Below are positions 27,418-29,946 of a stretch of 32,940 bases of DNA, piece after piece. The translations under genes were made by a program, and so were the position numbers. The notes below the pieces were generated by a model. The model saw nothing but the letters and a program-made list of their open reading frames with translations. It was not told where the DNA came from and searched no databases. Numbering within the stretch: the stretch's first letter is position 1; each line of letters begins with the position of its first letter. The stretch lies in the NCBI GenBank assembly GCA_012689325.1, contig JAAYEA010000532.1, positions 1 to 32,940 of the forward strand. The letters run 5' to 3'. The stretch is from Chloroflexota bacterium (GTDB lineage Bacteria; Chloroflexota; Anaerolineae; JAAYEA01).

Positions 27418-27446
27418 TTGACAAACTTGCCAATTTGACATATAAT
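27418..27446 (+). promoter_or_regulatory. Full-consensus promoter for the protease gene
   Basis: TTGACA at 27418-27423 and TATAAT at 27441-27446 with a 17-bp spacer, identical to the sigma-A consensus and the strongest promoter in the window. Transcription would start near 27453. Confidence 0.88.
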
Positions 27447-27452
27447 ATGTAG

Positions 27453-27711
27453 AGGGAGGAAAGTCTTTCGCTGAGGATCGCTTGGCTGCCCTGTTCGGGG
27501 GTGCACAGGGCTGAGGCCGCTGGTTTGGGACGCCCACGGCGGGTGCGCGCTGTTGATCGTTCTCAGCACCCGCCGAGGATGCCCCGGCCGTGGCCCGAGA
27601 TGGAGAGGAAGGTGATGACCAGAGCCTGTCCTCAGAGGCAGGGTGGTGGCGCGTGGACGTTGCTCTCAGCGCAGCTTGTGGCTGAACCAATGGGAGGAAC
27701 CAGGAGGCAAC
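27453..27711 (+). other. Long structured 5' leader of the protease mRNA
   Basis: About 260 nt separate the expected transcription start from ATG 27712. Two clear hairpins are present: GCCCTGT/ACAGGGC at 27488-27511 and a 10-bp stem with CGGCGGGTGC at 27537-27546 pairing with 27566-27575. No T run follows either. Short frames starting at 27616 and 27643 overlap the main start. I recognise no known riboswitch. The leader may control translation or stability. Confidence 0.45.
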
Positions 27712-29946
27712 ATGAAAGCGCGTTGGGCTGCTGCTTTTCGTCTGGTCATGGTTTCCATCGTATTGCTGGTCGGCATGACCGCCGCGGCCTTGCCAGCGGC
27801 GGGCGACGCCCCGCCAGAGATCCACGTCACGGAGCGCGATAACGGCAAGTCCATCGACCTGAACGGCGAGGTGCTGGTCGTCCATTTGGAGAGCAACCCC
27901 TCCACCGGCTATGGCTGGCAGGTGCAGGGGCTCGGCGCGGGCGTGCTGCGCCAGTTGGATGAGGCAGAGTGGCTGCCGACCAGCGAGGGCAAGCTCGGCG
28001 CGCCGGGCACCCAAGTGCTGCGCTTCGCCGCCGCCAACAAGGGCGTGGCCATCCTCAAGCTCGTCTATGGCCGTCCCTGGGGGGCCGCTGGCGCGGCGAA
28101 CCTTGCCGCCTCGGCCCGGACCTTTTCCCTGGAGGTGCGCGCGAACGCGCCTTCCAAGGACACGGGCTATCCCGCGCCGGCCGCGCAGGAGCCGGACCTG
28201 GCCGTGGACCAGAAGCTGCCCGCGGCGGATGGCGGGGCGTCACTGGCTGCCGTGCCCTCGGCCTACAACTGGTGTACCCTCGGGGGCTGCACCCCGGTGC
28301 GCGATCAGGGCAACTGCGGCAGTTGTTGGGCCTTTGGCACCGTCGGCCCCATCGAGATGAACATCCTGATCAAGGACGGGGCCTCCAAGGACCTGGCGGA
28401 ACAGTGGCTGGTGTCGTGCAACACCGATGGCTATGGCTGCGATGGCGGCTGGTGGGCGCACAAGTACTTTGTGTCGCCAGGGGCGGTCTATGAGAGCGCC
28501 TTTCCCTATACTGCCACCGATGTTCCCTGCGGCGGGCCCTACACCTACCACGAAAAGATCGCCAGTTGGGCCTATGTCGGCACCAGCTACAGCGTCCCTA
28601 GCACGGACGCCATCAAGCAGGCGATCTATGATCGGGGCCCGGTATCCGCCGCGGTGTGCGTCAACACGGCCTTCCGGAGCTACACCAGCGGGGTCTTTAA
28701 TCCCGCGACCTCGTGCACCACGATGAACCACGCCATCGTCCTGGTGGGCTGGGATGACGCCCTGGGAGCCTGGCGGCTGCGCAACTCGTGGGGAGACGAC
28801 TGGGGCGAGGGCGGCTACATGTGGATAGCCTACGGCAAGAACCGGGTCGGCTACGCGGCCGCCTCCGTGGTCTACAATAGCTCGGTGCCGCCCACGCCGC
28901 CCGCTGCTCCGACCAACCTGGCGGCAACCGCCGTCTCGTACAGCCAGATTAATCTGGCCTGGACCGATAACTCGGGCAACGAGACTGGCTTCAAGATCGA
29001 GCGTTGCACCGGCGCGGACTGCAATGGTTTTGCGCAGATCGCCACGGTCGGCGCGGGCGTGACCAGCTATGCGAACACCGGGCTGGCCGCGTCCACGAGC
29101 TATAGCTACCGGGTGCGGGCCTACAACGATGGCGGCGACTCGGACTATTCCAACACGGCCACCGCGATGACGCCTGATCCCCCGGCCGGAGCCAAGCTCT
29201 ACCTGGGCTCCAGCACCGCGGGCACGGCCGGAGGCGTCGCCTTCGCCGATGAGGATATCCTGATCAAGGATATGGGCACCGGCGCCTGGTCGCTGTTCAT
29301 AGATGGCTCGGACATCGGGCTGGCCAACACCGACATCGATGCCTTTGAGCTGCAAGCCGGTGGCTCGCTGCTGATGAGCTTTGACACCGACTTTACCCTG
29401 AGCGGCTTGGGCGCGGTGGACGACTCGGATATCCTGCGCTTCACACCCACCTCGACGGGCGCCACGACGGCCGGGAGCTGGTCGTGGTATTTCGACGGCT
29501 CGGACGTGGGCCTCTCGACCAGCGACGAGGACGTGGACGCCTTCGCCCTGCTGCCGGACGGCCGGCTGCTGGTCAGCACGCTGGGCAGCTTTTCGGTGAC
29601 GGGCGCGTCGGGCGCGGACGAGGACCTGATCGCCTTCACGCCGACGGCTCTGGGGTCCACCACCTCTGGCGCCTGGGCCATGTACTTTGATGGCTCGGAT
29701 GTGGGGCTCTCTTCCACGTCGAACGAGGACGTGAACGCCGCCTGGGTGGACGCGGCTGGCAAGATCTACCTGAGCACCGTGGGCAGCTTTGGCGTCACCG
29801 GCGTCAGCGGCGATGGTTCAGACATCATCGTCTGCACGCCGGGCACGCTGGGCAGCACGACAACCTGCACGTGGACGATGTACTGGGATGGCTCGGCCAA
29901 CGGCTTTACGGGCGAGGTCACCGATTCGCTCAGCATCATCCCCTAA
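27712..29946 (+). CDS. Secreted fusion of chagasin-type inhibitor (I42) and papain-like protease (C1A) with FN3 and C-terminal repeats
   Basis: Exported protein of 744 residues; ATG 27712 follows AGGAGG. A signal peptide spans residues 1-30. Residues about 33-145 match the chagasin inhibitor family, with all three binding loops: NPSTGYGW at 62-69, GAPGT at 96-100 and RPW at 121-123. A papain-type domain occupies about 180-390: oxyanion Gln199 and nucleophile Cys205 (DQGNCGSCWAF), His340 (MNHAIVLVGW) and Asn358 (RNSWGDDWGEGGYMWIAYG). An FN3 domain (about 398-492) and four repeats of about 65 residues ending in W-x-x-Y-x-DGSDVGL follow. The usual papain propeptide is missing and the inhibitor domain stands in its place, suggesting intramolecular inhibition until cleavage. 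No sortase motif is seen. Confidence 0.92.
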   Translation: MKARWAAAFRLVMVSIVLLVGMTAAALPAAGDAPPEIHVTERDNGKSIDLNGEVLVVHLESNPSTGYGWQVQGLGAGVLRQLDEAEWLPTSEGKLGAPGTQVLRFAAANKGVAILKLVYGRPWGAAGAANLAASARTFSLEVRANAPSKDTGYPAPAAQEPDLAVDQKLPAADGGASLAAVPSAYNWCTLGGCTPVRDQGNCGSCWAFGTVGPIEMNILIKDGASKDLAEQWLVSCNTDGYGCDGGWWAHKYFVSPGAVYESAFPYTATDVPCGGPYTYHEKIASWAYVGTSYSVPSTDAIKQAIYDRGPVSAAVCVNTAFRSYTSGVFNPATSCTTMNHAIVLVGWDDALGAWRLRNSWGDDWGEGGYMWIAYGKNRVGYAAASVVYNSSVPPTPPAAPTNLAATAVSYSQINLAWTDNSGNETGFKIERCTGADCNGFAQIATVGAGVTSYANTGLAASTSYSYRVRAYNDGGDSDYSNTATAMTPDPPAGAKLYLGSSTAGTAGGVAFADEDILIKDMGTGAWSLFIDGSDIGLANTDIDAFELQAGGSLLMSFDTDFTLSGLGAVDDSDILRFTPTSTGATTAGSWSWYFDGSDVGLSTSDEDVDAFALLPDGRLLVSTLGSFSVTGASGADEDLIAFTPTALGSTTSGAWAMYFDGSDVGLSSTSNEDVNAAWVDAAGKIYLSTVGSFGVTGVSGDGSDIIVCTPGTLGSTTTCTWTMYWDGSANGFTGEVTDSLSIIP
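29197..29937 (+). repeat. Four in-frame repeats of about 195 bp in the protease gene
   Basis: The anchor DGSD(I/V)GL, or DGSANGF in the last copy, starts at 29302, 29494, 29689 and 29887, spaced 192, 195 and 198 bp. Units also share the patterns DEDVDAFAL, LLVSTLGSFSVTG and LGSTTSG. They may form beta-propeller-like or stacked beta units outside the cell. Confidence 0.75.

Follow-up and report, generated by a model that had tools for sequence, protein, structure and literature searches.

The gene described here lies on the plus strand of the window, by which we mean the whole stretch of DNA that was analysed (32,940 nucleotides). It encodes a chagasin domain (Inhibitor_I42, here I42) followed on the same chain by a papain-type catalytic domain (Peptidase_C1, here C1). 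Its features are collected in Table 1. The start codon is ATG and the frame is unbroken through 27712-29946; an earlier, sequence-only reading had the coordinates, frame and length (744 amino acids) right. Upstream lie tRNA-Pro and a penicillin-binding protein gene, and downstream a rubrerythrin gene. With such neighbours and a promoter consensus of its own, the gene looks monocistronic. The putative promoter and the ATG are separated by a GC-rich leader of about 250 nt (27453-27711). A structured leader RNA in this promoter-to-start interval was considered and rejected, as it has no Rfam match and its fold z-score is -0.26.

Table 1. Features of the I42-C1 gene and its product (positions in the window; residues of the protein)
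Feature	Position	Strand	Basis
Putative sigma-70-type promoter, TTGACA-17-TATAAT, 12/12 consensus positions	27418..27446	+	consensus match
Ribosome-binding site AGGAGG, 4 nt upstream of ATG	27702..27707	+	sequence reading
Whole ORF, 744 aa and stop: signal peptide, I42, linker, C1, fn3, repeats	27712..29946	+	translation and Pfam
Putative signal peptide, residues 1 to ~31; basic start, hydrophobic core, Ala-rich end	27712..27804	+	inspection and hydropathy
Chagasin (Inhibitor_I42) domain, residues ~36-145 (Pfam 52-132)	27817..28146	+	Pfam E 1.6e-17; AlphaFold2 beta-sandwich
Inhibitory loop L2, NPSTGYGW, residues 62-69	27895..27918	+	L2 motif as in PMC2607524
Inhibitory loop L4, KLGAPG, residues 94-99	27991..28008	+	conservation; L95 bridge in AlphaFold2 model
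Inhibitory loop L6, RPW, residues 121-123	28072..28080	+	conservation
Linker, residues 141-180, Ala/Pro-rich, poorly conserved; presumed processing region	28132..28251	+	column identity, pLDDT
Papain-type catalytic domain (Peptidase_C1), residues 181-385	28252..28866	+	Pfam, Foldseek
Gln199	28306..28308	+	catalytic set with Cys205
Catalytic Cys205	28324..28326	+	invariant in 20/20 fused proteins
His340	28729..28731	+	catalytic set with Cys205
Asn358	28783..28785	+	catalytic set with Cys205
Fibronectin type III (fn3) domain, residues 399-484	28906..29163	+	Pfam E 3.9e-11
C-terminal region, residues 519-744, ~3.5 copies of a ~65-residue repeat	29266..29943	+	sequence inspection

A profile search with Inhibitor_I42 and Peptidase_C1 placed both domains above their curated cut-offs: I42 scores 64.0 bits against 27.2 over residues 52-132 (67.4 bits when searched in its own genome), and C1 scores 156.6 bits against 20.7 over residues 181-383 (E 1.3e-45). 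The three chagasin loops and the catalytic residues Gln199, Cys205, His340 and Asn358 lie at the positions given by the sequence-only reading. When the catalytic domain was submitted to Foldseek, the best solved chains were cathepsin S and ervatamin C (E about 4e-18). A Pfam scan of the protein gave no match to I29 or any other propeptide family. The host genome (5.29 Mb, 97% complete) contains a single I42 match and a single C1 match, both in the window protein, so another C1 target for the I42 domain is not at hand there. A search of the same genome with the I29 profile PF08246 came out empty as well, but it was equally silent on its controls and therefore carries little weight.

The fn3 domain and the C-terminal repeats are parts of the protein that the earlier account had left out. 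The repeats follow the pattern ..FDGSDVGLS..EDVDAF..GSFSVTG..DEDLIAFTPT.. and residues 519-744 match no Pfam family above cut-off and have no second copy in the genome; possibly they form a surface or adhesion module.

Conservation and predicted docking of the inhibitor domain

Members of I42 are defined by loops L2 (NPxTG), L4 (a hydrophobic residue, then GxGG) and L6 (RPW/F) (PMC2607524). The loops of the window protein, NPSTG, KLGAPG and RPW, fit this definition, with a Pro in KLGAPG at the position where the GG pair of chagasin has its first Gly. Conservation was assessed in a set of 20 fused proteins, consisting of the window protein and 19 homologues at 35-60% identity. Mean top-residue identity is 0.73 in the loops and 0.36 in the rest of I42, compared with 0.30 in the linker and 0.66 in C1. 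Twelve I42 columns are conserved at 85% or more, and eight of them fall in the loops, which take up only 19 of the 105 positions (hypergeometric p about 9e-5). Invariant in all 20 proteins are G66, W69, R121 and W123 of the inhibitor and Q199, C205, H340 and N358 of the enzyme, while G96 of L4 is conserved in 95% and P122 of L6 in 90%. With such selective conservation of the loops, the inhibitory surface has been retained in the fused state. The affinity of chagasin itself is carried by T31 of its NPTTG loop and by R91 and W93 of RPW, and R91 pairs with enzyme residue 18, more strongly if that residue is Asp (PMC2607524); its counterpart in the window enzyme is D198.

The linker tells a different story, with no conserved cleavage site visible in the alignment of the 20 fused proteins. 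A short propeptide hidden within it was also considered, as P156 seemed conserved in a mixed alignment. This residue is present in 55% of the fused set and the profile of the prosegment described below is silent there, and the idea was dropped.

An AlphaFold2 model of residues 31-390, built with 73 alignment rows, has a pLDDT of 90.5 and a pTM of 0.88. About 205 of the 360 residues belong to C1 and, by our own arithmetic, pTM would stay at about 0.6 or lower if the placement of I42 were free. The value obtained exceeds this ceiling, which argues that the relative placement of the two domains, with I42 against the catalytic domain in cis, is predicted with confidence. By blocks, pLDDT is 89-98 within I42 except for residues 121-140 (66-76), and 47-61 over residues 151-180 of the linker. 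A model of C1 alone (pTM 0.92) has the same isolated bridges as the fused model save one: Gly246, which corresponds to papain Gly66 in the S2 subsite, forms an isolated bridge solely when I42 is present, and within I42 just one residue, L95 of loop L4, has such a bridge. These secondary-structure differences are read most simply as pairing in cis between L4 and the substrate-binding strand, an interaction that chagasin makes in trans. The sequence-only reading had named two contrary outcomes, a missing I42 match and loops that cannot reach Cys205, and neither was seen. Whether the loops reach the cleft in cis had been posed as a check, and the predicted bridge at the S2 subsite speaks in favour of such reach, although AlphaFold2 may have been trained on chagasin-cathepsin complexes from the PDB, in which case the predicted docking is not independent of them. 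A linker of 40 residues can span well over 100 angstrom; hence the reach of I42 to the cleft is not limiting.

Relatives with fused, neighbouring or absent inhibitor

When 84,980 species genomes were scanned with the I42-C1 part of the protein, 79 loci emerged, and local profiles were then applied to all frames. Three arrangements can be distinguished. In arrangement (i), I42 and C1 are in one frame; there are 27 non-redundant cases including the window. According to the names of the records, which are mainly MAGs and among which single contigs may be misnamed, the majority of these hosts belong to Chloroflexota (Anaerolineae, Roseiflexus and others) and the remainder include Thermodesulfobacteriota/Deltaproteobacteria, Acidobacteriota, a Bacteroidales MAG, a cyanobacterial MAG and a Contendobacter MAG. 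In arrangement (ii), I42 is a separate ORF adjoining C1; the 10 cases come from Caldithrix, Aminicenantes, Acidobacteriota, Methanosarcina, Methanosaeta, Smithella, a record named Nitrospira japonica, Myxococcota (two) and Christiangramia. Arrangement (iii), with 51 cases, is C1 without a nearby I42. Of 298 genomes sampled from the class to which the window belongs, at least 19 have one uninterrupted match across both domains, and three further genomes of this sample have both domains in the same frame with an insert between them. The I42 domain as such was found in 75 of 400 genomes of the phylum, many times as short ORFs. The rarity implied by the sequence-only reading was therefore mistaken: the window protein is one member of a widespread and apparently undescribed subfamily of fused I42-C1 proteins. 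The subfamily is probably of single origin, and a tree with the fused group as one clade was not rejected (AU p 0.75).

The relatives that lack a fused I42 have something else in its position, a conserved stretch, some 50 residues long, that precedes LPxxFDWR. Its profile consensus contains GYTFTVGENSASKLPLEELCGLRVPEDW, and the pattern can be described as GYTFTVGxNxAxxxPLxxLCGLxxP-like. A profile of this prosegment, trained on sequences of arrangements (ii) and (iii), matches at E<0.01 in 51 of the 61 unfused relatives and in none of the 27 fused proteins, the window protein included (Fisher p 1e-14). Broken down by arrangement, (iii) has it in 42 of 51 cases and (ii) in 9 of 10, against 0 of 27 for (i). 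Hence a neighbouring I42 gene goes together with retention of the prosegment, and a fused I42 with its loss. By sequence comparison I42 stands at the place taken by the prosegment in close relatives, which supports the inhibitor in place of a propeptide proposed by the sequence-only reading. It should be kept in mind that with a single origin of the fused group the loss of the prosegment is probably one inherited swap rather than 27 independent ones, so that the contrast is statistically unreplicated; an independent-pairs test of fusion against prosegment absence had too few events for significance.

By eye, the prosegment (L060, L063, L064, L066 and others in alignment A5) is reminiscent of a short cathepsin-B propeptide. 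The possibility that it is a relative of I29 was rejected: the 17 members scanned gave no Pfam propeptide match, and its profile had no match in the PDB.

Proposed latency and its alternatives

Several suggestions can be made regarding what the fused inhibitor might do. We think it probable that the protein is a secreted cysteine protease of the papain family (C1A) with a chagasin pro-domain, held latent in cis until the linker is cut. The steps that we infer (secretion, the contacts of the individual loops, latency, cleavage and its site, and anchoring) would be as follows. During or after export, the N-terminal I42 would cover the active-site cleft of the C1 domain on the same chain. Loop L4 would enter the S2 side in the manner of a substrate backbone, L2 would lie over Cys205, and L6 would use R121 and W123 to grip D198 and W360. 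With the cleft blocked the enzyme would be latent. Cutting of the exposed linker (residues ~141-180) by another molecule of the enzyme or by another protease would then make it active, the inhibitor being degraded or diluted away afterwards, and the fn3 domain and the repeats would probably keep the mature enzyme on the cell surface or on its substrate. A wider scenario, towards which we lean a little less than away from it, is that the subfamily exchanged its ancestral propeptide for a chagasin once, with a former trans inhibitor now doing the work of folding and latency, and that some members may keep I42 as a reversible self-gate.

Another potential role for I42 is that of a folding helper, an intramolecular chaperone whose inhibitory activity is a by-product and whose latency has no regulatory role. 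Propeptides of the papain family assist folding, many protease propeptides act as intramolecular chaperones, and I42 does take the place of the short prosegment of its relatives. However, most of the residues conserved in I42 correspond to active-site contacts of known chagasin complexes and not to the beta-sandwich core, and we find it unlikely that folding is the chief role. Help in folding and inhibition are not mutually exclusive, of course.

It is likewise improbable, in our judgement, that I42 stays tethered as a reversible gate that competes with substrate, with no single decisive cleavage. Chagasin binding is tight yet reversible (PMC7863939) and the linker displays no conserved cleavage site, both of which suit such a gate. 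On the other hand, affinity in the picomolar range combined with a tether would leave the enzyme closed nearly all the time, and exposed flexible linkers are usually cut by proteases. Both the folding helper and the reversible gate are partly compatible with the chagasin pro-domain reading favoured above.

If instead I42 were released, it could act in trans against cysteine proteases of other organisms at the cell surface, the protease being its carrier or partner. The frequency of free-standing I42 in the phylum (the 75 of 400 genomes, many with short ORFs) and the occurrence of tandem-I42 proteins, of which L052 has four such domains, would fit this proposal. Against it, the host genome has I42 in the window protein alone, and an inhibitor that faces outward needs no conserved cis arrangement with C1; we regard it as quite unlikely.

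Since the protein contains an Ig-like module elsewhere, the fn3 domain, one could also ask whether I42 is just another inert, non-inhibitory Ig-like spacer. A spacer would not be expected to retain exactly the loop surface, which is the selectively conserved part of the fused I42, and the occurrence of I42 as a separate gene adjoining C1 genes in other phyla points to a functional pairing, which makes this idea very improbable. An artefact of assembly or frame that joined two genes can be dismissed, as no stop interrupts the frame and the fusion recurs in independently assembled genomes, among them the 19 or more of the 298 of the class and those of other phyla.

Known systems and variants of the architecture

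The chagasin/ICP proteins of Trypanosoma and Leishmania (MEROPS I42) share with the window protein the Pfam PF09394 domain, loops L2 (NPxTG), L4 and L6 (RPW), and papain-family targets (PMC2607524), but they are small separate proteins, whereas here I42 is fused N-terminally to C1 on one chain. Zymogens of the papain family that carry I29 or cathepsin-B-type propeptides likewise begin with a removable stretch by which the cleft would be blocked; there the propeptide is helical, while in the window protein it is a chagasin beta-sandwich. Papain-family propeptides are themselves inhibitors. The inhibitor-like N-terminal segment of cathepsin F is of the cystatin type. Cathepsin F is similar in that it is a papain-family protease with an inhibitor-like N-terminal domain (PMC11171618), yet the fold of the inhibitor is different and the ordinary propeptide is kept, in contrast to the window protein, which has no recognisable one. 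The exclusion domain of cathepsin C and the LolA-like domain of the 26/29-kDa peptidases are further examples of non-helical, beta-rich domains ahead of C1A (PMC7863939, PMC10380794), but they are outside any family of free-standing cysteine-protease inhibitors. In the staphopain-staphostatin system a protease and its dedicated inhibitor come from the same organism, as in those relatives of the window protein that have I42 as an adjoining ORF; they are, however, two separate proteins, of protease family C47 and the unrelated inhibitor family I57 (PMC7863939).

A description of the I42-C1 fusion was not found in the open-access literature, an absence that is no proof. A 2023 survey of the papain family left multidomain prokaryotic members unanalysed and did not mention chagasin (PMC10380794). 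The architecture lists of Pfam and InterPro very likely include the combination already, so that the novelty is in recognising it as a subfamily in which the propeptide has apparently been replaced. The origin and role of chagasins in prokaryotes have been little studied, and the cis pairing hints at what their endogenous target might be. Together with relatives that have I42 in a neighbouring gene or the propeptide only, naturally fused proteins make it possible to test directly if an inhibitor can assume the job of a propeptide.

Several variants were seen among the loci. In L053, L061 and L062 the fused gene is duplicated in tandem, side by side. In four Chloroflexota loci (L052, L042, L044 and L051) there are two to four tandem I42 domains with C1 absent from the same frame, an organisation like that of kininogen-style multi-headed inhibitors. 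About half of the fused homologues have an extra N-terminal region of about 110 residues ahead of I42 (observed in L040, L041, L055, L056, L057, L061, L062, L069 and L081). It was considered as a second I42 or a prosegment and rejected, as neither profile matches it; the four such proteins scanned gave no significant Pfam match in this region. Finally, the fused member at L059:2274-4952 has about 240 residues, with a weak MAM-type resemblance, inserted between I42 and C1, which suggests that tight spacing and docking of the two domains are unnecessary in some members.
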